NCBI GenBank assembly: GCA_025363015.1 | Contig: JANYEQ010000101.1 | Location: forward strand, 1-49,292 | Source: Bacteroidota bacterium | GTDB taxonomy: Bacteria; Bacteroidota; Bacteroidia; B-17B0; Aurantibacillaceae | Direction of reading: 5' to 3' | Length of the DNA: 49,292 nt | Part shown: piece after piece, positions 23,621 to 35,812 of the stretch | How the letters are laid out: the number at the start of each line of letters is the position of its first letter | How positions within the stretch are numbered: the first letter of the stretch is position 1 | Program-made: the position numbers and the translations under genes | The notes under the pieces: generated by a model | What the model saw: the letters and a program-made list of their open reading frames with translations, nothing else | What the model was told of the DNA's origin: nothing | Databases searched by the model: none

Positions 23621-24859
23621 TTATCTTATTATATTATTTGGACGAGCATAAACCATTTGCATGACGTTTATATTTCGCATAGCAAAAGCAGCTTCGCAAT
23701 AGCACAAATAGTAGTTCCACTTACGTATAAAATAATCGTCAAAACCTAACTGCTTTACTTCATTTAATTTTTCGTTAAATGCATTGTGCCAGATGGCCAA
23801 TGTGTGAGCATAATCCAAGCCTATATCTTTTAAATCAACCAAAGTAAAATCGCTTGTTTTATTTATGGCTGTATTAATAGCAGAAACGGATGGCAATAAT
23901 GATCCAGGAAAAATATGTTTCTGAATCCAATCTACTCCATTTTTAAAACTTTCAAAACGTGAGTCAGGGCTAGTAATAACCTGTAAGGCAAAAATGCCAT
24001 CTTTTTTTAAAAGTTGAGCACATTTTTTAAAATAGGTTTCGTAATACTCGGCACCAACCGCCTCTAGCATTTCTATAGATACTATTTTGTCAAATTTTCC
24101 TTCTATGCTTCGGTAATCTTTTATTAAAACGGTTATTTTATCTTCTAAATTTTCTTTAATAATTTTTTCGGTGGCTAATTTATATTGCTCTTCTGATAGA
24201 GTAACCGTAGTTACCTTGCACCCAAAATGTTTTGCCATATAAATGGCATTGCCACCCCAACCGCTTCCAATTTCAAGCACATGGTCGCTAGAGTTTAACC
24301 GAAGTTGTTGGCATAGCCGGTGGTATTTGGCCAATTGTGCTTGCTCTAACGTCATATCTTTTTCTTTAAAATAGGCCGAAGAATAAGTCATGGTGGGATC
24401 TAAAAACAAGCTAAAAAATTGATTATTCAAATCATAATGTTCGCTAATGTTTTTTTTAGAGCCGCTTATACTATTAATTCTTTTTTGATGATAATTTTTA
24501 TTAATAAATTTTAAAACATTTAAAATAAAATTAGTTGTGTTGCTACCCGAAATGGTAGGCGCATTATCTACGTTTAACAAAAACCATTTTATTAAGTTGG
24601 TAATATTATCGGTTTCCCAATCGCCATCTACATAGGCTTCTCCAAAGCCTACATCGCCATACAATACACAGCGTTTAAAAAAGGAAGCATTTTTTATTTG
24701 AATGTTAGCATTAATTTTTGAGTTGTTTTCACCCCATTGAATTGTTTCGCCATCAGGCAATGTCAAATTTAAACTTCCTAATTTCATTTTTGATAAAACA
24801 GAAATTATTAAGTTTTGGTAAAACCCGTATTTTGATTTTGTTATAGAAATTGACTGCAT
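23621..24859 (-). CDS. Cyclopropane-fatty-acyl-phospholipid synthase-like methyltransferase (412 aa)
   Basis: A SAM-dependent methyltransferase of the CFA/mycolic-acid synthase family, with an N-terminal lipid-binding region (about 1-150) and a class I fold (VLEIGSGWGG at 194-203). Aligned by eye to E. coli Cfa, the bicarbonate-site Cys139 is Ser161 (TYSSAYF) and His266 is Gln293 (ALQVIT). The Glu (Glu266, MLEAVG), Ile295 and the Tyr of DYAHTLAIW are kept. From memory, Gln at this site also occurs in the oxidase-linked plant-type CFA enzymes, so activity is likely but the exact product is uncertain. It is the last gene of the seven-gene lipid cluster, after DUF1365 and the amine-oxidase-like gene. 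Confidence 0.88.
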   Translation of the reverse strand: MQSISITKSKYGFYQNLIISVLSKMKLGSLNLTLPDGETIQWGENNSKINANIQIKNASFFKRCVLYGDVGFGEAYVDGDWETDNITNLIKWFLLNVDNAPTISGSNTTNFILNVLKFINKNYHQKRINSISGSKKNISEHYDLNNQFFSLFLDPTMTYSSAYFKEKDMTLEQAQLAKYHRLCQQLRLNSSDHVLEIGSGWGGNAIYMAKHFGCKVTTVTLSEEQYKLATEKIIKENLEDKITVLIKDYRSIEGKFDKIVSIEMLEAVGAEYYETYFKKCAQLLKKDGIFALQVITSPDSRFESFKNGVDWIQKHIFPGSLLPSVSAINTAINKTSDFTLVDLKDIGLDYAHTLAIWHNAFNEKLNEVKQLGFDDYFIRKWNYYLCYCEAAFAMRNINVMQMVYARPNNIIR

Positions 24860-24943
24860 TAGGGCTTAAAAATACATAAAATTTAACATAAAAAATAGAC
24901 GAATTAGAATCAAATTCCTTACAGAATTTAAACACAGCTTAAA

Positions 24944-25732
24944 TTATTTTTTACGAAACACATTGCGTTGTAAATCTTGATCATCTGATTTTTTTTGATA
25001 AGGAATTTTTTTTAACCACAACAATAAGGCATTCCAGTGTATTAATGTTATTATTCTCAACGTTAAAAACGGAAAACGAATGCTATACCAAAATAAATTT
25101 GCATTATTTAATATTTTTTTAGTTCCTATAAGCGTACTAACAAAAAGTCTATCGTTATTTTTTAAAGTATCTATTTTTATGTTTAATTTTTGGTTAGGAA
25201 TATATAATGTAAAATCAAAATTAGAATCGTGACTTATAAACGGCGAAACATAAAAATACTTTGTTGTGTTTAAATGAAATTTATTTTTTAAAAATAAATC
25301 TTCGCCTAAAAAATAAGGCTTCATTTCTCCAAATGTATTTCCAACTTCAGCTATTGCACAACATGGCCTGCCATCTGTATTTAAAATATAATAAAACGAA
25401 ACAGGATTAAAATTATACCCTAAAATATTTAAATTAGTGAGCAACATGATTTTTTGATTAGTATAGTTAAATCCTTGTTGTTTTAAATAATCAATAATGT
25501 GTTGTTTTATGTTTTTATTTTTATCTGGGTTATCAATAGGCAATTGTAAGTGTTCTTTATCTTTAAACGAAAAAAAATTAAATGTATTGTGGCTAAATAA
25601 TAGTAGTTTGTTTTTTAAAGTACTTAACTCATCCAAATCAATATAAAACATAAACACGTTGTAATAAAAGCTATGCGCTTTAGGGCTTAAGCGATTATGC
25701 ATTACTTGGGCTTTATATAGGCAACTGTTCAT
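24944..25732 (-). CDS. DUF1365 family protein
   Basis: A 262-residue protein with the DUF1365 signatures: CLYKAQVMHNRLSPKAHSFYYNVFMFYIDLDEL at the N-terminus (strands and the conserved R-x-P/H), LTNLNILGYNFNPVSFYYI in the middle and IAEVGNTFGE. The biochemical role of the family is not established. It is repeatedly encoded between an FAD amine-oxidase-like gene and a CFA-synthase gene, exactly the order here, so a role in modifying unsaturated acyl chains is inferred. Its start overlaps the stop of the amine-oxidase-like gene by one base, indicating translational coupling. Confidence 0.88.
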   Translation of the reverse strand: MNSCLYKAQVMHNRLSPKAHSFYYNVFMFYIDLDELSTLKNKLLLFSHNTFNFFSFKDKEHLQLPIDNPDKNKNIKQHIIDYLKQQGFNYTNQKIMLLTNLNILGYNFNPVSFYYILNTDGRPCCAIAEVGNTFGEMKPYFLGEDLFLKNKFHLNTTKYFYVSPFISHDSNFDFTLYIPNQKLNIKIDTLKNNDRLFVSTLIGTKKILNNANLFWYSIRFPFLTLRIITLIHWNALLLWLKKIPYQKKSDDQDLQRNVFRKK

Positions 25733-26976
25733 TATAGTTTTTCACATAACTCTACCGCGCTTTTAAATGCGTCTTCGTGAAAGCCGTATTTAAAATAACT
25801 TCCACAAAAATAAAGTGGGCCTGTTTGGTTTAAAATATGTAATTGCTTTTGTGCATTAATAGCGGGTATATCAAACAACGGATGCTCGTATTCTATTACG
25901 CTAATTAGTTTTGCTTTATCAATGCTGTTTGGTAATGCGTTTATTGATACAAAGTAGTTTTTGTTTTTTGAAACACCTTGTAGTTTATTCATCCAGTAAA
26001 TAGTAGTTGGTACTGGCTTTCCGTTTTGTTCTTCAATTCTATAATTCCAACTGCTCCATGTTTTTTTTAGTTTTGGCATTATACTTTCGTCAGTATGCAC
26101 AGTGGCTGTATTTTTTTCATACTTAAAAGGCGATAACAAGCGTTGCTCGTCAGCTGTTGGCGCATCTAACATGGCTAATGTTTGGTTAGCATGCGATGCA
26201 AAAATCACCTTATCAAATTCGTGTTGCGAATTATTGTTTAAAGTTATGATTGCTTTGTTATTTATGTGTTTTACGTTTACAACCGTGGCGTTGGTTTTAA
26301 TTTTATTTTTAAAGGGTGCAATTAATAGTTCGCGGTACGATTGGCTTCCTTTGTGCAACGTGTACCATTGGTGTTGCGTATTTAAACCTAAAAAACCATG
26401 ATTTTTAAAAAAACGAATAAGTGCAACCGCCGGAAAATCTAACATTTTATCGATAGGAGTGCTCCAAACAGCGGAACTCATTGGCACTAAATATTTGTAA
26501 AGCATTTCATCGCTAAATCTAAATTCTTTTATGTACTCTGCTAATGAATAGTTTTCGTATTTAGAATTATCTAAAATCTTTACACTAATTTTATTAAAAC
26601 GCGTTATTTCTTTTAGCATTTTAATGTACTTAATATTAACTATATTTTTACGTTGTGCAAATAGGCCGTTAATGCCCGAGCCGCAGTACTCAAGTCCACT
26701 GGGTGTATGTTGCACACTAAACGACATTTCTGTTTTTTTAATAGGCGCTTTTAAGTCATTAAATAATTTGCAAAGATGTGGGTAGGTTTCAAAATTAAAT
26801 ACCATAAAACCAGTATCCATAAATACGTTTTCGTTTTCTTCGTTTACCGAAATAGTATTGGTATGCCCACCTACATAATTATTTTGTTCAAACAAGGTAA
26901 TGTTATATTTTTTATGTAAAAAATGACCGCAGCCCATACCCGCAATACCAGTGCCTATAATTGCTAATGTTTGCAT
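25732..26976 (-). CDS. FAD-dependent amine-oxidase-like oxidoreductase (CFA-associated)
   Basis: A 414-residue flavoprotein. The dinucleotide motif is LAIIGTGIAGMGCGHFL, followed by FEQNNYVGGHTNTI and MDTGFMVFN. The C-terminus carries the second FAD motif, GPLYFCGSYFKYGFHEDAFKSAVE. This subgroup is linked to CFA-type methyltransferases: in plant cyclopropane synthases a homologous oxidase domain is fused to the methyltransferase, and actinobacterial 10-methylstearate synthesis also uses an FAD protein with a CFA-like methyltransferase. A role in reducing or oxidising the methylated acyl chain is therefore inferred. It overlaps the hydrolase and DUF1365 genes by one base each. Confidence 0.88.
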   Translation of the reverse strand: MQTLAIIGTGIAGMGCGHFLHKKYNITLFEQNNYVGGHTNTISVNEENENVFMDTGFMVFNFETYPHLCKLFNDLKAPIKKTEMSFSVQHTPSGLEYCGSGINGLFAQRKNIVNIKYIKMLKEITRFNKISVKILDNSKYENYSLAEYIKEFRFSDEMLYKYLVPMSSAVWSTPIDKMLDFPAVALIRFFKNHGFLGLNTQHQWYTLHKGSQSYRELLIAPFKNKIKTNATVVNVKHINNKAIITLNNNSQHEFDKVIFASHANQTLAMLDAPTADEQRLLSPFKYEKNTATVHTDESIMPKLKKTWSSWNYRIEEQNGKPVPTTIYWMNKLQGVSKNKNYFVSINALPNSIDKAKLISVIEYEHPLFDIPAINAQKQLHILNQTGPLYFCGSYFKYGFHEDAFKSAVELCEKL

Positions 26977-28109
26977 TAATGTGTTGTTACTGAATTTATA
27001 AATCGTTCGATGGCAAAAGTAGATAGTTGCCCGCTTGGGCCGCTAATATTATAATCACAACCATGTGTGGCACAGGGTAAATTTAAAAAATAGTGCTGTA
27101 CATTATTTTGTGATAGTTTTTTGTTTAACCTTACACTATGCTCATAAGCAACCATAGCATCATGTTCGCCATGAATAATTAAAGTTGGCGTTGATGTTTT
27201 AGTAACAAATTCGCATGCCGAACTTTCTTTAAATTTTTCTGGCACTTCATCAATGGTGCCCCCTAAATACTCGTTAAACACTTTGTTAGTATTTAATACC
27301 CAACTATTTACTTTTATTTTTCCGCCCCAAACCATATCTGCAGGGGCATAAAACGACACAACACCTTTAATGTTTTTGTTATTAAATGTGTAGGCAGCAC
27401 ACAAAGCAATTTGTCCACCCGCAGATCGCCCAATTAAAACGAAATTAGAAGTGTCAATATTTAATTTTTGTGCGTTTGTTGTTAGATAATTTATAACACT
27501 TTGTACGTCTTCAACGGGTGCTGGCGATTTATAGTTGGGCGCTAAGCGGTAATTTATAGCAGCAACATGATAACCTTTGTTTGCCAAATAACTATTTAAA
27601 GCGGGCAGCTGTTTACTATCGCCCTCGCGCCACGAACCGCCATGTATTACAATTACACAAGGCGATTTACTAGTTGTAGTTGATGAATAAAAATCAATAT
27701 TTAGTTTTTTTTCGGGTAAAGTTTTGTAGGTAAATATTTGAGGCGAAATAGTTTTAATGCCAATACCACTAAATAAATTAAAAAACGAAAAGGGGCTTTG
27801 TAAAAAAGTTGGGTTATTTTTTGTAGGAAATGAGATTGCTAATTCTTCCGTTAAATAATTGCCACGTTTATAGGCTTGTATAATGGGTAATAAATAAAGA
27901 ATAGTTGTAAGCCCAGCAATAATTAAAACGGGCGTTCTATAATTAACCGACCAAAAACAAAGTATAAAAAGCAATAGTGAAACTCCAAAAAATAGCTGTG
28001 GAAATTCAGTAATAGCAACAGATACTCGCCATAAAAAATTTGTTGGTGCTCTAAAAAGTACCAATAGCGAAAATAAAAATAAAACAATTAATAAAAATAA
28101 ACGCCACAT
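26976..28109 (-). CDS. Membrane-anchored alpha/beta hydrolase
   Basis: A 377-residue protein with three hydrophobic helices in the first 105 residues, then an esterase-type alpha/beta hydrolase domain. Visible are the oxyanion HGGSWREGDS, the nucleophile elbow GRSAGGQ (Ser), the acid in HGEHDAMV and the catalytic His in ATHGCD. It resembles BD-FAE/carboxylesterase enzymes that hydrolyse acyl or acetyl esters. In the lipid cluster it may release or transfer acyl groups, which is inference from location. It starts 2 bases after the CFA-like gene at 28112 and overlaps the next gene by one base. Confidence 0.85.
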   Translation of the reverse strand: MWRLFLLIVLFLFSLLVLFRAPTNFLWRVSVAITEFPQLFFGVSLLLFILCFWSVNYRTPVLIIAGLTTILYLLPIIQAYKRGNYLTEELAISFPTKNNPTFLQSPFSFFNLFSGIGIKTISPQIFTYKTLPEKKLNIDFYSSTTTSKSPCVIVIHGGSWREGDSKQLPALNSYLANKGYHVAAINYRLAPNYKSPAPVEDVQSVINYLTTNAQKLNIDTSNFVLIGRSAGGQIALCAAYTFNNKNIKGVVSFYAPADMVWGGKIKVNSWVLNTNKVFNEYLGGTIDEVPEKFKESSACEFVTKTSTPTLIIHGEHDAMVAYEHSVRLNKKLSQNNVQHYFLNLPCATHGCDYNISGPSGQLSTFAIERFINSVTTH

Positions 28110-28111
28110 AC

Positions 28112-29143
28112 TTATTGTTTTTTACAAAATAAATAATGGCTCACTATCCATTCTTTGCCCTTATTATAAGCCCATAATTCGGCACAAGCCATATAAAAAA
28201 TTCGCCAATATACCCACCATTTTATTGCATTTTCTTTGCCATAGGTTAGTTCAAACAAGGGCAATATTTCGGTTTTATGTTTATCCATGTTTTGTAACCA
28301 GGCTTCAGATGTTTTTGCATAATGCATTCCGCTTATGTGCCAATGTTTTGCAATACTTAAATGCTCGTTAAAATAAAGTAATAAATCATCGCTTGGCATA
28401 ATACCTCCGGTAAAAAAGTACTTACTCATCCAATCTGTTTCATTTATTACTTCAAATTTGTAAGCATATTCTTTATGAGTAAAAATATGTACAAATAGTT
28501 TCCCATCAGCTTTTAAAAGCGTTGCCACTTTCTGCATTAATTTTTGATAGTTACGCATGTGCTCAAACATCTCCACGCTTACAACCCTATCAAATGTTTT
28601 ATCTAAATTAAAATCGTTAATATTTATGGTAATTACCGTTAAGTTATTAATACCCCTTAGTTGCGTTTGTTCATCAATATAAATTTTTTGCGTGCGAGAA
28701 TTTGACACAACTGTAAAATTACTTTTGGGAAATTTAGTTGCCATAAATAAAGAAAGCGAACCCCAACCACAGCCTAGTTCCAACACATCTTGTCCGCTCT
28801 GTAAATCGGCTCGTTGGCAGGTTAACTCTAACATATCTTTTTCTGAGGTATCAATATCTGTAACACCTGCATTCCAATAACCGCTACTATACTTTAAATG
28901 TTTACCTAAACAATACTTATAAAATTGTGTAGGCACTTCGTAATGTTGTTCGTTAGCTTCTTGAGTGTTTATGGCAATTGGCGATGCTTTTAATTCTTCA
29001 ATTAATTGCATCAAATGTGCTTGTTGCATTTCTGTGCTTCCTTTATTTTCATCCTGCAAACGCCGTTTTAATAGTTTACGAATGCCAACACGAAGCAAAA
29101 AATCTGGAATTTTATTTTTTTCTAAAAGAGAGTTATACCACAT
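28112..29143 (-). CDS. CFA-synthase-family methyltransferase, short form (343 aa)
   Basis: A second CFA-family SAM methyltransferase, distinct from that at 23621-24859. SAM motif LELGCGWGSL lies at 121-130. The bicarbonate-site Cys of E. coli Cfa is Ser87 here (KYSSGYW), while Glu204 (MFEHM) and His219 (FVHIF) are present and the segment HYAKTSEAW keeps the Tyr. The shorter N-terminus and sequence resemble the plant coclaurine N-methyltransferase-like branch, so a cyclopropane product is not assured and N- or C-methylation is possible. It lies 2 bases before the hydrolase gene and after the DUF1295 gene. Confidence 0.8.
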   Translation of the reverse strand: MWYNSLLEKNKIPDFLLRVGIRKLLKRRLQDENKGSTEMQQAHLMQLIEELKASPIAINTQEANEQHYEVPTQFYKYCLGKHLKYSSGYWNAGVTDIDTSEKDMLELTCQRADLQSGQDVLELGCGWGSLSLFMATKFPKSNFTVVSNSRTQKIYIDEQTQLRGINNLTVITININDFNLDKTFDRVVSVEMFEHMRNYQKLMQKVATLLKADGKLFVHIFTHKEYAYKFEVINETDWMSKYFFTGGIMPSDDLLLYFNEHLSIAKHWHISGMHYAKTSEAWLQNMDKHKTEILPLFELTYGKENAIKWWVYWRIFYMACAELWAYNKGKEWIVSHYLFCKKQ

Positions 29144-29206
29144 ACAAGTTTAAATACTTAATAGTACGAATATACGAACGATGTTACTTAAATGGATTGT
29201 AAAAGT

Positions 29207-29986
29207 TTAAACTTTCTTAAACCATGGAACAAAAGAGCTAGTTGTTTTTTGATACGTTTTGTAAGCCTCGCCTTTGCTTCTTACTGCCTGTTCTTCTGTC
29301 ATAGGTATGCCAGTAACTTTAAATAATAAAAAACCAATGCTTAAAGGACATAAAATAGCTAAATAACCATAGGGGCTGCAAATAGAAAAAACGCTAACGC
29401 TTACCCAGATTAATAACTGAAAAAAATAATTTGGATGACGGGAATAATTCCATAAACCGTATTGGCACACCTTGCCTTTATTTTCGGGTTTAGATTTAAA
29501 ATAACTTAGTTGCCAATCGGCAATGCCCTCGCCACAAATAGCAATAAACCACAACGCTGCTCCAATGTATTCAATAACAGATATTGAAGGGTTTGGATTT
29601 AAGGATGTAATAAAAAAAGGCAATGCTAAAAATACATTTGAAAAGGCTTGCATTTGATAAAAACCAAAAAACTTAGCACTGCTCCATTCGGCTCTCAGCG
29701 CTTTGTATCTTCCTTCTTCAACTTTTAAATGCCCACCAACTCGTATTAGTAAATAAATGCCTAAACGTAAGGCCCATAAAGATGATAGTATAAATACACT
29801 GTTTTTTCGAGTAGAATAACCGTTTGCTAAAAGCCAAATAATAATTGCAATTACTAAAAAATTAAATGCCCAAAATATATCTACAATACCATTATTTTTT
29901 ATTTTTAATGCCCATAAATAAATGCCAGTCATTATAAGAGCAACAGCTAACCAACTTATTAAATAAATAGATAAAAAATTATTCAT
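29207..29986 (-). CDS. DUF1295 membrane protein (steroid 5-alpha-reductase-like)
   Basis: A 259-residue integral membrane protein with about six hydrophobic helices. LWNYSRHPNYFFQLLIWVSV is the hallmark Arg-His-Pro-Asn-Tyr motif of the ICMT/steroid-5-alpha-reductase-like DUF1295 family, followed by ITGIPMTEEQAVRSKGEAYKTYQ. Family members are often predicted to reduce double bonds using NADPH, but this is unproven. In this operon, next to a desaturase and two CFA-like methyltransferases, a role in reducing a modified acyl chain is inferred. Its start overlaps the stop of the desaturase gene by one base. Confidence 0.87.
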   Translation of the reverse strand: MNNFLSIYLISWLAVALIMTGIYLWALKIKNNGIVDIFWAFNFLVIAIIIWLLANGYSTRKNSVFILSSLWALRLGIYLLIRVGGHLKVEEGRYKALRAEWSSAKFFGFYQMQAFSNVFLALPFFITSLNPNPSISVIEYIGAALWFIAICGEGIADWQLSYFKSKPENKGKVCQYGLWNYSRHPNYFFQLLIWVSVSVFSICSPYGYLAILCPLSIGFLLFKVTGIPMTEEQAVRSKGEAYKTYQKTTSSFVPWFKKV

Positions 29987-30717
29987 TATTCTTGTTTTCT
30001 AAATTTAATAATGCCCACCAGGCTCATAAATTTAATAATAATATAACTTGGGTCGAGCTCAAACTTTTTTTGTGCAAAATTTACACTGTTTGGTTTTTTG
30101 TGATGGTTGTTTTGAAACAATTCGCCCAGCATTAAAAAGTCTAAAGGCAAAGTGTTTTTGCTATGGTCATCGTTATCATAATTACTGTAACCGTATTTAT
30201 GTCCGCACCAATTCACAATAGCGCCATGTAAAGGCCCCATAAAAAAATGAATTGGCAATAAAGCATATTGCCATGGAGAGGTGGCAAATTTTACATAAAA
30301 CAAAGTATATAAAACGCCAAATAAAAGTCTAACCACCCACATATCGCTAATTTTATCAAGTGTTTTCCATTCGGGGTAATTACCTCTAAAGGCTTTTTCA
30401 GGCTCAACATTATGTTTGGCATAGTTTAAATAAATATCTTTTGTATGCATGGTCATTTGCCAAACATCTTTAAAAAAATGGGGCGAGTGAGGATCTTTTT
30501 CAGTATCGCTATAAGCGTGATGCATGCGATGTAAAATGGCATAAGCACGAGGATTTAAAAAAGAAGAGCCTTGGGTTAAAAATGTAAAAAAATAAAAAAA
30601 ACGTTCCCAAAATTTACCCATAATAAACATTTTATGGGAACCATAACGGTGTAAAAAAAAGGTTTGGCAAAATAAAGACAAAAACCAGTGAGCAAGAAAA
30701 AAGAGTAGTATATACAT
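29986..30717 (-). CDS. Acyl-CoA/acyl-lipid desaturase
   Basis: A 243-residue membrane di-iron desaturase with the three His boxes HRYGSHK, HRMHHAYSD and NNHHKKP, and two to four hydrophobic helices. It introduces a cis double bond, the substrate needed by CFA-type methyltransferases. It is the first gene of the cluster and shares one base with the DUF1295 start. A TAnnTTTG box ends 6 bases before its ATG, so a very short or absent 5' leader is possible. The protein is slightly shorter than typical stearoyl desaturases but the boxes are complete. Confidence 0.88.
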   Translation of the reverse strand: MYILLFFLAHWFLSLFCQTFFLHRYGSHKMFIMGKFWERFFYFFTFLTQGSSFLNPRAYAILHRMHHAYSDTEKDPHSPHFFKDVWQMTMHTKDIYLNYAKHNVEPEKAFRGNYPEWKTLDKISDMWVVRLLFGVLYTLFYVKFATSPWQYALLPIHFFMGPLHGAIVNWCGHKYGYSNYDNDDHSKNTLPLDFLMLGELFQNNHHKKPNSVNFAQKKFELDPSYIIIKFMSLVGIIKFRKQE

Positions 30718-31545: not shown

Positions 31546-34500
31546 TTAATTAACCACCACTTTTATGGTTTTGTAAATGGTAGTTGTTTTAAATACGATA
31601 TTATATATACCGCGTGCATACTTACTTAAATCAATAGCTATATTGCTTTTTGCAGTTGGTAGGGTTTGTACTACTTGCCCTATATTATCATAAATAGTAA
31701 TGCTAAAAACATCGGTTACCTCAGTAACAATATTAAACTTACCATTGTTAGGGTTAGGCACTATATAAATACCATCTTTTAAACCCGTGTTTGTTAGGTT
31801 TGAAATGCCTGTACACACTACTACAGTAACATTAGATATATTTATATTACTACACGTTCCATCGCTACCTGTTACCGTATAGCTTGTGTTCGATGTAGGA
31901 CTAACTACTAAATTACTACCCGTTGCACCAGTACTCCAGGTATAAGATATTGCACCATTCGCATTTAAACTAGCAGCGGTGCCAGCACAAATAGTTGTAT
32001 CGGCTGTACCCACATTTGGTAAAGGGTTAACGGTAACAGTAGTTGTTTTTACTGCTTTACAAAATCCTGTAGTGCCTGTAACTGTATAAACCGATGTAAA
32101 ATTTGGTAATACCGAAATAGAATTTGAAGAGGCGCCTGTGCTCCATGAATAAGTACTAGCACCACTTGCATTAACCGTAGTGTTAGAACCATAACAAATA
32201 CTTGGACTTGTTACCGCTAAGGTAGGTGTTGCACCTACTGTAATGGTTTGAGACATGGGTGCACTATTACCATTACTATTTGTAGCCACCAAGGTTACCA
32301 CATAATTACCAGCCGCTGCATAGCTTACCGTTGGGTTGGCTGCAGTTGAAGTGTTGGGTGTGCCCCCCGTCATTGTCCAGTTGTAAGAGGTAGGTAAATT
32401 AGTACTCATATCGGTAAGGTTTACTGCCTGCCCGCTACATGGGTTACTGGCGGCATAAGCAAAGTTTGCTGTAGGGGGCAAACCAGCAACAGCACCCGTA
32501 ATGTTAATATTATCAATATATAAACCTTGCCCATAACGTCCTCTGTTTTGCAGGGCAATCATTACGTTACTATTACCCGCATACGATGTCAAATACACAG
32601 TATCGGTACGCCATTGTGCTGCGGTTGGTACAAACAGTGCGGTTGAATAATCAGGGGCGGTAGATAAAGGAACACCACCTTTTAAATAAACCTGTGTAAA
32701 GGATAGCCCACAATTGGTAGAAACCATTACTGCTAATGAATCGCTGTATTGTGCATCATATCGGGCGTAAGCTACATCAAAATACATTTTAATAGTGGTG
32801 TACCCTGTAAAGTTGTATTTTGGCGTACGCATTTCGTCTCTAATACCAGCCGAATTTAAATTGTAATTATCGTAAAATAATGAGGCTGTGCTTGCTTTAC
32901 CAACGCTTGCATTTTTTGTCCAAACTAAACCATCGGTTCCAGCATCGTAATTTTGCCAATTTGTTGGTGGAAAGGCTACTCCTTGAAAGCCCTCAACTAA
33001 AGGTAAAATGTTATTTGTAGGTGACACGGTAATGTACACTGTTTTTGTCATTACACTTGTGCCATTAACATTAGTGGCCGATAGTGAAACACTGTAGGTT
33101 CCGGCAGTATTGTAGGTAATAGAGGGATTTTGTAGGGTTGATGTAGCTGGGGTTCCGCCTTGAAATACCCAACTCCAACTTGTAGGTACAAAGCTAGATA
33201 AATCAGAAAAATTTACAACGTCGCCTGGGCAAATAACTTGTTTGTTCGACCCAAAATTTGCAATTGGTGCAGATGTACCGGTGTTATATAAATCAGCCTC
33301 CCACACACCGCGCCCATAAGTGGCTGCGCGTAATTTACCCAAAGGATAAAATATTGCTAAATCTTGTACCATTGTATTTGGTAAACCAGCATTATACAAT
33401 ACCCAGCTTGCAGAGGCTAAGTCTCTAAAATATACGCCTACATCACAACCAACATACACAGATCCTGCCGTACCGTTCCAGTAAGTAACACAATTGGTTG
33501 GTAAATTTGGTAAACCTGTTGAATAGTTTACCCAAGTTGCGCCACCATCTGTCGTTTTAAATACCTTGTTACCTGCTGAATAACCCGAAAAAGTAACAAA
33601 TACTGTGTTAGGGTCGGTATCTTTTATAGCAAGCCATGTTAATTGGGCGCTACCAGTTGGTAAAGTACCTGTAATGGCTGTCCAGCTTGTGCCACCATTT
33701 ATAGTTTTATAAAGTGCGTTGCCTTTTATAACATAAATAATTTGTGCGTTTGAAGGTGCAACTGCAAATTCAACAATGCTTCCACTGCCACCCATTGTGC
33801 CTATTTGTGCCCAATTTGTACCTTGGTTAGTTGATTTAAATAATTCATTTCGACCACCATAAATAGTATTTGCTACTGTAGGATCTTGATGCCAAGGAGT
33901 AACCCAAGCACCACTTCCAGTCATTCCGGTTGTAATTGCTGCCCAACTTGCGCCGCCATTTGTACTGCGATTAAATGAGCCATTATATTGTTCTCCATAC
34001 ATAACCGAGTTGTTAAATTGGTCAATAAAACAATTCATGCCATCGCCACCCATTGTTTGATTCCAACCACCCGAAAATAAATTAGTGCCATTATCTTGAT
34101 GCCCAGTAATGGCTAAACTATAAGTGTTTGCAGATAAACCAATTTTATAAATTTGCGAAATATTCATATTACCGTTAATAGCGTTAAATGATGCGCCACT
34201 ATTGTTGGTATAAAACACACCACCATCGCAACCTACAAACAAAGTAGTACCGTTTTTGTATATTAAATCATGAATATCAGCGTGCACATAAGGCGCTCCA
34301 GAGCCCGTCCAATGACCAAATAAATTCCAGCTAGTACCAGCGTTTGCGGTATGCCACACATTTACGCCACCCACTACTACTTCGTTTGCATTTGTTGGCG
34401 AAGCGGCAATAGATAAAGTGTACCAGCCTTGTCCTCCAGCCGCTACATCAGTACCAGCACTAGACCAACCTAATAAGTTTAACGATGTGGGTTTAGCAGT

Positions 34501-35637
34501 AAATGTAGTACCGCTATTTGTAGATTGATAAAAGCCTAAAAAACCACTGTTTGAAGAGCTACTTGCTACTACATATACATAGGCCGAATTGGCTGGTGTT
34601 ACAGCAATTGCCAAGCGATTGTTAGATGCGGCAGTTGGTAAACCACTGGTTATTGTAGTAAATGTAGCGCCATTGTTTGTTGACATAAAAAAGCTAGTGC
34701 TTACGGCATAAACTGTGTTTGGGTTACCAGGCATAAACTCCACGTCCACAATATTACCTGCCTGAACTGTTGCCCATGTGGCTCCTCCGTCTGTTGAACG
34801 AAGTAAACCTATGGTTGAGGCTGCAAAAATATTAAGATTATTACTTGGGTTAATTAATAGTTTGCGTATTCTTCGACCTTGTGAAACTGTCCAAGCTAAA
34901 CCTGTTGCAGACCATGTTGAACCACCATTGGTAGATTTTAAAACGCCTGTACTATAAGAGTCACCAGCATCGCCATCGCCTGTAGCTAAATACATTACTA
35001 AAGGATTAGTAGGATCGAACACAACATCAGAAGTACCAATAACACTAAGTTGGTCGGTAGCTGTACTCCAAGATGAGCCTAAATTTGCCGAACTCCATAA
35101 ACCACCAACGGGTGCACAACTCCATAAGCCGTTTACGTTTGATGGGTCAAATCGCACGGCGTTTATACGGCCAACGTTACCCCCAGAAGGATCACCAAAG
35201 GGGCCAATGGGTTGCCACGTAGCCGATAAAACAGAATTACTGCTACCAATATTTTTGTTTTGAGAGTTAGATGCACTTAATTCTTCGGCATATTTTTGAT
35301 ACTCTTCATAAGCGCGTGAGGCCAATGTTTTATCGCCACTTGGGTACACGCGTGGTGCCATAAAATTTTCCCAGCGCTTGTATAATTCAAAACCAGCAAG
35401 CTCTTCTTCTTGCTCGGCACCAACGTTTAGTTTACCAACTGAACGGGCTTTTTCTTCGCGTTCATGCTCTAATTCTTTAGTGTATTTTTTAAAATGTTTG
35501 TTTAAACGTTTTTGTGTGGTGTAAAAGTTTTCAGACGCATCGCCATAATTAAAATTAGCGTTTTTTTGAGCTTTGCCCGAAATTAAAAATGCTGTAAATA
35601 ATACAACCGTGATTAGGAACCGTAAGTTTTTTACCAT
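31546..35637 (-). CDS. T9SS cargo protein: BNR/sortilin-like propeller, PKD repeats, type A sorting domain
   Basis: About 1363 residues from the start I chose at 35637 (MVKNLRFLITVVLFTAF), which gives a signal peptide ending near SGKAQ. An in-frame upstream ATG (35766) would add 43 residues and hide it. Residues about 137-790 hold many Asp-box/BNR motifs (STNGGSTWS, STDGGATWA, KTTDGGATWV) as in sortilin-like propellers. PKD domain 1 is at about 790-875, a jelly-roll/choice-of-anchor region at about 877-1049, PKD 2 at about 1054-1135, two Ser/Thr-rich repeats, then a type A T9SS sorting domain in the last 75 residues (IVPNPNNGKFNI, IYDNIGQVV, YARGIYNIVFKT). The protein should be exported and attached to, or released from, the surface. 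Function unknown; sequence gives no catalytic domain. Confidence 0.88.
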   Translation of the reverse strand: MVKNLRFLITVVLFTAFLISGKAQKNANFNYGDASENFYTTQKRLNKHFKKYTKELEHEREEKARSVGKLNVGAEQEEELAGFELYKRWENFMAPRVYPSGDKTLASRAYEEYQKYAEELSASNSQNKNIGSSNSVLSATWQPIGPFGDPSGGNVGRINAVRFDPSNVNGLWSCAPVGGLWSSANLGSSWSTATDQLSVIGTSDVVFDPTNPLVMYLATGDGDAGDSYSTGVLKSTNGGSTWSATGLAWTVSQGRRIRKLLINPSNNLNIFAASTIGLLRSTDGGATWATVQAGNIVDVEFMPGNPNTVYAVSTSFFMSTNNGATFTTITSGLPTAASNNRLAIAVTPANSAYVYVVASSSSNSGFLGFYQSTNSGTTFTAKPTSLNLLGWSSAGTDVAAGGQGWYTLSIAASPTNANEVVVGGVNVWHTANAGTSWNLFGHWTGSGAPYVHADIHDLIYKNGTTLFVGCDGGVFYTNNSGASFNAINGNMNISQIYKIGLSANTYSLAITGHQDNGTNLFSGGWNQTMGGDGMNCFIDQFNNSVMYGEQYNGSFNRSTNGGASWAAITTGMTGSGAWVTPWHQDPTVANTIYGGRNELFKSTNQGTNWAQIGTMGGSGSIVEFAVAPSNAQIIYVIKGNALYKTINGGTSWTAITGTLPTGSAQLTWLAIKDTDPNTVFVTFSGYSAGNKVFKTTDGGATWVNYSTGLPNLPTNCVTYWNGTAGSVYVGCDVGVYFRDLASASWVLYNAGLPNTMVQDLAIFYPLGKLRAATYGRGVWEADLYNTGTSAPIANFGSNKQVICPGDVVNFSDLSSFVPTSWSWVFQGGTPATSTLQNPSITYNTAGTYSVSLSATNVNGTSVMTKTVYITVSPTNNILPLVEGFQGVAFPPTNWQNYDAGTDGLVWTKNASVGKASTASLFYDNYNLNSAGIRDEMRTPKYNFTGYTTIKMYFDVAYARYDAQYSDSLAVMVSTNCGLSFTQVYLKGGVPLSTAPDYSTALFVPTAAQWRTDTVYLTSYAGNSNVMIALQNRGRYGQGLYIDNINITGAVAGLPPTANFAYAASNPCSGQAVNLTDMSTNLPTSYNWTMTGGTPNTSTAANPTVSYAAAGNYVVTLVATNSNGNSAPMSQTITVGATPTLAVTSPSICYGSNTTVNASGASTYSWSTGASSNSISVLPNFTSVYTVTGTTGFCKAVKTTTVTVNPLPNVGTADTTICAGTAASLNANGAISYTWSTGATGSNLVVSPTSNTSYTVTGSDGTCSNINISNVTVVVCTGISNLTNTGLKDGIYIVPNPNNGKFNIVTEVTDVFSITIYDNIGQVVQTLPTAKSNIAIDLSKYARGIYNIVFKTTTIYKTIKVVVN

Positions 35638-35812
35638 AATAGTTTGTTTATATAATATGAAGATATAGAAAAAAATATGCGAAAACCAATAATTTTGACG
35701 AATGGCAATATTTAACCGATAAACAGTAAATTTTAACATAGGTTTTTTATTTTCAAAAATAAACAAACGTTTTCTTCACTATATTTACATCATTAGATAA
35801 GGTTTAATAAAT

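Follow-up and report, generated by a model that had tools for sequence, protein, structure and literature searches.

A putative dimethyl-type furan fatty acid biosynthesis operon in a Bacteroidota genome and its recurrent DUF1295 companion gene

Pathway assignment

The window analyzed here is a stretch of 49,292 nucleotides from a Bacteroidota bacterium (assembly GCA_025363015.1, contig JANYEQ010000101.1, positions 1 to 49,292 of the forward strand). It contains a seven-gene operon for acyl-chain modification, which we assign, with a probability of about 0.83, to the biosynthesis of dimethyl-type furan fatty acids (FuFAs). By sequence, four of its genes correspond to ufaM, ufaD, ufaO and fufM, and the likely product would be a dimethyl furan fatty acid. 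The operon thus appears to represent a known pathway in a new phylum, arranged as a single unit with a desaturase, and points to a companion protein of the DUF1295 family. A thin literature search, covering titles and opening abstracts, returned no report of the FuFA pathway in Bacteroidota.

The dimethyl pathway has been demonstrated in Rhodopseudomonas, where the tested genes were RPA2571-2569 and RPA0924 (PMC7380195, Lemke 2020). As reported there, UfaM methylates cis-vaccenate with a shift of the double bond, UfaD yields a methyl-diene, and UfaO, a DUF1365 protein, forms the furan using O2. FufM is described as the second methylase, which acts on the furan chain, in R. palustris after ring closure. 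A preliminary description of the operon had proposed a methyl-branched, cyclopropane or further oxidized fatty acid made with two non-identical methylation steps. This pointed in the right direction and mentioned furan acids, and the specific match is the FuFA pathway. It also held that no nameable pathway fits the gene set, which is incorrect for ufaM, ufaD, ufaO and fufM (PMC7380195) but, as far as we could find, correct for the full set of seven with DUF1295 and the hydrolase.

The open reading frames of the window and their Pfam matches bear out seven genes of the families named before, all on the minus strand and spanning exactly positions 23621–30717:

29986–30717, minus strand: FA_desaturase, DesA-like membrane fatty acid desaturase, 243 residues (Pfam; NCBIfam DesA_fam at 118 bits, below its cut-off of 400)
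29207–29986, minus strand: DUF1295 protein, 259 residues, probably a membrane protein (Pfam DUF1295 at 218 bits; Steroid_dh at 29 bits, cut-off 22.6)
28112–29143, minus strand: putative FufM orthologue, the short CFA-like (CMAS-like) methyltransferase, 343 residues (Rhodopseudomonas match and tree)
26976–28109, minus strand: alpha/beta hydrolase of the BD-FAE family, 377 residues, with a hydrophobic N-terminal stretch (Pfam)
25732–26976, minus strand: putative UfaD orthologue, FAD protein (amine-oxidase/NAD_binding_8), 414 residues (Pfam; Rhodopseudomonas match)
24944–25732, minus strand: putative UfaO orthologue, DUF1365, 262 residues (Pfam at 238 bits; Rhodopseudomonas match)
23621–24859, minus strand: putative UfaM orthologue, the long CFA-like (CMAS) methyltransferase, 412 residues, S139/A240/Q266 (Pfam; Rhodopseudomonas match and tree)

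One-base overlaps are present at three junctions (desaturase/DUF1295 at 29986, hydrolase/FAD protein at 26976 and FAD protein/DUF1365 at 25732), not at four as had been claimed. The remaining gaps measure 2 bases between fufM and the hydrolase, 63 between DUF1295 and fufM and 84 between DUF1365 and the long methyltransferase. The four pathway genes share this single operon, and between fufM and ufaD only the hydrolase intervenes.

In the proposed reaction sequence, the desaturase, probably the supplier of the double bond, would introduce a cis double bond into the acyl chain. UfaM would methylate this bond with S-adenosylmethionine and shift it to give a methyl-alkenoate, from which UfaD would strip hydrogens to leave a conjugated methyl-diene. 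UfaO would insert oxygen from O2 and close the furan ring, and FufM would attach the second ring methyl to the monomethyl furan. The DUF1295 protein would be a further conserved component, perhaps a reductase. The steps from UfaM to FufM have been shown experimentally for Rhodobacter and Rhodopseudomonas proteins (PMC7380195), and those of the window are read from its genes. Since the local desaturase and acyl pool would set the length of the chain and the position of the ring, the product is expected to deviate from 9D5-FuFA in both.

For comparison, seven Rhodopseudomonas genomes were searched, and orthologues were chosen by gene order. A FufM-level match is found in six of them. The three genomes for which both regions were taken contain a ufaD-ufaO-ufaM run and, elsewhere in the genome, a DUF1295-fufM pair, an order that agrees with RPA2571-2569 and RPA0924; a separate Cfa, retrieved in two of the three, may at a guess match RPA3082. 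Against R. pentothenatexigens, the window proteins show identities of 35% for UfaD (278 bits), 33% for UfaO (130 bits), 44% for FufM (295 bits) and 38% for DUF1295 (165 bits). The long methyltransferase is closer to the UfaM of this genome (37%, 294 bits) than to its Cfa (32%, 227 bits). UfaD and UfaO are assigned by pairwise matches and neighbors rather than trees. With the UfaD query, each of the seven genomes gives a sole match at E ≤ 1e-15, which adjoins UfaO and UfaM in all four genomes whose region was taken. Searched against solved structures, the UfaD profile has the amine oxidase LkcE as top match (E 6e-61), which is uninformative on the substrate, and the UfaO profile gives one match at E 0.15, which we take as none.

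Methyltransferase phylogeny and residues

A first tree was built from 45 methyltransferase sequences, labeled by their gene neighbors except for those of Rhodopseudomonas and the window. The long enzyme falls into a UfaM group of 28 sequences that includes the Rhodopseudomonas orthologues (support 100/99). The short enzyme and its Rhodopseudomonas counterparts belong to a FufM group of seven, which is separated from UfaM and Cfa with support 100/100. Nine Cfa sequences lie outside both groups and need not form one clade. The two enzymes had been regarded as unusual members of the Cfa family; instead, each sits in a well-supported group of its own apart from the Cfa sequences.

At positions 139, 240 and 266 of E. 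coli Cfa, all nine Cfa sequences carry Cys, His and His. Among the UfaM sequences Ala240 and Gln266 are invariant (28/28 each), and Ser139 is present in 25/28, with Ala in two and Cys in one. The long enzyme of the window reads Ser, Ala and Gln and the short one Ser, His and His. Ser in place of Cys139 in both enzymes and Gln in place of His266 in the long one had thus been recognized correctly, while the short enzyme keeps the His. Glu239, Ile268 and Tyr317 of E. coli Cfa are retained in the long enzyme. Because the Ser and Gln flagged as unusual are shared across the UfaM sequences including the Rhodopseudomonas orthologues, they are, as judged from the alignment, the signature of the UfaM clade and common to orthologues of a working enzyme. 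Loss of catalysis through Ser139 and Gln266 was rejected, since four Rhodopseudomonas UfaM orthologues have identical residues. An ordinary pair of Cfa enzymes was rejected on tree placement and residues. Directly behind the UfaM of a plasmid from Rhodococcus erythropolis lies another CMAS-like frame (L217:7116-8048) with no annotated gene; it has Ser139 and Gln266, yet forms a long branch among the Cfa sequences.

Plant enzymes of the AT3G23510 type make cyclopropane acids. By analogy, the long enzyme could be a cyclopropane synthase of the plant type whose FAD domain has become a separate protein, in which case the product of the operon would be cyclopropane rather than furan acids; we consider this improbable. 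The long enzyme is a member of the CMAS family, AT3G23510, which is classed as a cyclopropane synthase, is like both UfaM and UfaD (PMC10940516), and a report on Halomonas UfaM expressed in E. coli describes cyclic acids alongside a methyl-alkenoate (PMC12089945). However, in the tree the long enzyme clusters with UfaM of Rhodopseudomonas and apart from Cfa. UfaM is also accompanied by UfaO and FufM, both in the window and in the 10 further genomes with FufM drawn from the phylum, and these two proteins would have no evident role in forming a cyclopropane.

A second alternative, to which we give slightly less credit still, takes the short enzyme as a coclaurine-type N-methyltransferase that acts on an amine and is merely located in a lipid operon. 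It does match a plant coclaurine N-methyltransferase (265 bits; 39.5% identity by BLASTP), and a second tree fails to set two plant N-methyltransferases firmly apart from the FufM group (support for the separation 47/70). Rhodopseudomonas FufM is closer, though, with 43.6% identity and 294 bits vs. 256, and the 11 genomes, out of 392, that carry the short enzyme are also those with DUF1365. Furthermore, the furan chain is an experimentally established substrate of FufM (PMC7380195).

Genome distribution and gene neighborhoods

The 392 genomes are drawn from the window's phylum, as grouped by the search resource used and with the window's own genome included; FufM was called present at E ≤ 1e-50. 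FufM and DUF1365 are each found in 11 genomes, and the 11 are identical. DUF1365 and DUF1295 each have a single match in the window's genome. Within the genus of the window (37 genomes including its own), 18 genomes have FufM, 18 have UfaO and 17 have both; FufM counts full-length matches, so that a weaker match in genome G028, which is its UfaM, is left uncounted. DUF1295 occurs in all 19 genomes with FufM or UfaO and additionally in G010, there as a fragment at a contig end in an assembly with 6% contamination. This patchy distribution suggests gain or loss of the pathway as a unit. Genome G026 (locus L225) represents a partly lost pathway: desaturase, DUF1295, fufM and ufaD are kept, the genome has no DUF1365 match, and the stretch contains no ufaM.

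Neighborhoods were compared at 50 FufM loci. These comprise the window, 21 further loci from relatives (every remaining genome with FufM in the search of relatives), 10 loci of the wider phylum (all others found among the 392 genomes), five plasmids chosen from 44 plasmid records with fufM, three of the six Rhodopseudomonas loci, and 10 other Alphaproteobacteria, the remainder of 11 FufM genomes among 289. Within 9 kb of fufM, the 32 phylum loci including the window contain UfaD in 31, UfaO in 29 and UfaM in 28 cases, an association beyond chance, contig ends not being excluded. The desaturase is near fufM in only 18 and the hydrolase in only 14 of the 32 loci, so both are optional members. 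The exact set of seven genes is found in four (the window, L051, L054 and L056, the contig of L056 ending inside the long methyltransferase). The outcome named earlier as speaking against a dedicated pathway, with both enzymes in ordinary Cfa and neighbors assorting independently, is seen neither in the trees nor in co-occurrence or neighborhoods.

Several loci carry additional genes. Small genes of two kinds, which we take to resemble four-helix-bundle (S23) and GxxExxY proteins, interrupt the operon in L038, L039, L040, L041, L042, L048, L052 and L056; they lie in the gap between fufM and ufaD in L052 and between ufaD and ufaO in the other seven. A repeat-like stretch separates ufaO and ufaD in L056 (L056:1802-2119). 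A protein of about 110 residues is encoded upstream of DUF1295 in L068, L069, L072 and L228 and upstream of fufM in L074 and L076; the two copies tested (L074 and L228) match DUF1475. In L072–L076, a protein of about 240 residues lies between fufM and ufaD, where other loci have the hydrolase, and two tested copies (L072 and L074) gave no Pfam match. A BD-FAE hydrolase also adjoins DUF1295-fufM in Mesorhizobium. On the Acinetobacter plasmid pYUSHP14-1 (L077), the FuFA cluster is complete, includes desaturase and DUF1295 genes and lies near a photolyase gene; of the 44 plasmid records in which fufM was found, seven are from Acinetobacter.

The operon of the window is flanked by a SpoIIE-type protein on one side and a protein without Pfam match on the other. 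A further protein of the window (31546–35766) carries at its C-terminus a sorting domain of the T9SS type A family (26 bits, cut-off 23), a hallmark of Bacteroidota and a sign of a probable origin in this phylum. A promoter scan was uninformative, with 33 sites vs. 50.3 expected in shuffled sequences.

Evaluation of the assignment

Several points weigh against the assignment to FuFA biosynthesis. Identities of 33–44% to the Rhodopseudomonas proteins are low enough for altered substrates or products, and these reference proteins, chosen by gene order, differ from the assayed set of strain CGA009. Tree labels beyond Rhodopseudomonas and the window rely on gene neighbors, and in the second tree the separation of FufM from the plant N-methyltransferases is not clean. 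R. rhenobacensis has the ufaD-ufaO-ufaM run and no FufM-level match. Plant cyclopropane synthases carry sequence similar to the UfaM signature, and by analogy this signature taken alone would be compatible with a cyclopropane product. Finally, no sigma-E/ChrR pair was found beside the operon, in a search of its flanks only and not of the rest of the genome.

The DUF1295 companion

DUF1295 is absent from the published FuFA pathway. In 40 of the 50 loci, from the phylum and from Pseudomonadota, it lies directly upstream of fufM on the same strand, and among the 32 phylum loci it is adjacent to fufM in 26, which makes it the steadiest of the three extra genes. It is found in 36 of the 392 phylum genomes including all 11 with FufM and DUF1365 (Fisher p ~8e-13, to be read with caution as the genomes are related). 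A strict link is contradicted by the other loci, with DUF1295 within 7 kb in seven and absent from the stretch taken in three, and by the 25 of 381 FufM/DUF1365-negative genomes that still carry it. One of the three loci without DUF1295 belongs to G155; in this genome the copy is found on a different contig, next to a DUF1475 gene and the remnants of a desaturase. In a phylum genome without DUF1365, DUF1295 adjoins DUF2177 (L229:6126-7297).

A tie of DUF1295 to FufM alone was dropped: Legionella, Streptomyces and Rhodococcus plasmids combine UfaD-UfaO-UfaM and DUF1295 with no FufM match, within the stretches examined rather than the rest of the genomes. For Azoarcus, UfaD-UfaO-UfaM is present and no DUF1295 match occurs within 15 kb. 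Viral contigs contained no DUF1295 relative.

All 21 aligned DUF1295 copies match the steroid 5-alpha-reductase family (E ≤ 0.01), compared with 17 for ICMT and 11 for PEMT. Against solved structures, the DUF1295 profile gives one match, an ICMT, at E 2e-4 in the C-terminal third. A reductase is the better-scored reading of this family, with a methyltransferase as the remaining alternative. A single-sequence structure prediction was unfit for a fold search and was not used (mean predicted local distance difference test score 45.5, predicted template modeling score 0.25). Very doubtful is a pathway that ends at methyl-branched acids, in which DUF1295, tightly linked and matching a C=C reductase family, would reduce the methyl-alkenoate or diene, so that a saturated acid with a mid-chain methyl group would be the main product and furan a minor one: UfaO, conserved alongside it, would be idle, and in R. 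palustris the step of FufM, to which it is directly linked, follows ring closure (PMC7380195).

R. palustris strains lacking RPA0923 are listed in PMC7380195, the main text of which names RPA0923 solely among strains and plasmids. RPA0923 is probably this DUF1295 gene, given that three Rhodopseudomonas genomes have DUF1295 immediately upstream of fufM. The same source reports that FufM from cell-free extract is active in vitro and that RSP1087-1089 are dispensable for monomethyl furan in R. sphaeroides. DUF1295 therefore seems not to be needed for FuFA chemistry as such, and handling of the product or of its oxidation product would fit.

Steroid 5-alpha-reductase reduces the C=C bond of an enone with NADPH. 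By analogy, we consider it a tentative and rather unlikely idea that DUF1295 is a core FuFA enzyme, which in its boldest form would reduce the ene-dione C=C formed after singlet oxygen opens the furan. The ene-dione, an electrophile, would be detoxified to a 1,4-dione, which could close again to the furan. If true, the membrane would have a renewable singlet-oxygen quencher at the cost of NADPH.

Stress context

FuFAs are lipids of the membrane with a connection to stress by singlet oxygen. Links to stress come from organisms other than that of the window. Singlet oxygen is reported to promote the destruction of furan acids, whose genes are placed within the core regulon of sigma-E/ChrR (PMC6852236). 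The FuFA genes have a sigma factor and a ChrR-family anti-sigma factor as neighbors in Mesorhizobium and Shinella, and in Burkholderia a sigma/anti-sigma pair. At two phylum loci (L074 and L076), MerR regulators of the B12-binding kind lie next to them. Illumination of Rhodococcus erythropolis for 40 h is reported to increase two Cfa-family proteins 22- and 44-fold (PMC9416670), and a plasmid of this species carries the UfaD-UfaO-UfaM trio and DUF1295.

Relation to known systems

E. coli Cfa shares the CMAS family with the long enzyme, which differs by Cys139 to Ser, His240 to Ala and His266 to Gln and lies outside the Cfa sequences. By description, C. elegans FCMT-1 performs a UfaM-like C-methylation at a cis double bond; unlike the window enzyme, it is an animal enzyme that feeds beta-methyl acids (PMC10876521). 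Chlamydomonas CFA1, CFA2, DUF1365, DUF1295 and DUF2177 belong to the same families and are co-induced by singlet oxygen in a SAK1-dependent manner, a link of co-expression only (PMC4067076). The Arabidopsis lipid-droplet proteins AT3G23510, which resembles UfaM (34%) and UfaD (38%), AT1G30130 (DUF1365) and AT4G33110/LIME1 (FufM-like) are again of the same families, likened by description; in the plant they are separate genes, with the UfaM and UfaD parts joined in one (PMC10940516).

Closest is the FuFA pathway of R. palustris and R. sphaeroides (PMC7380195), with the same four enzymes: the window methyltransferases group with the Rhodopseudomonas orthologues, and the other two proteins match. 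Whereas ufaD-ufaO-ufaM and DUF1295-fufM lie apart in the Rhodopseudomonas genomes studied, the window, from another phylum, unites them in a single operon with a desaturase and a hydrolase. It would thus hold a self-contained dimethyl FuFA set with its own desaturase outside Pseudomonadota, where the pathway was worked out. A puzzling operon becomes a testable claim, and DUF1295 is singled out for study.

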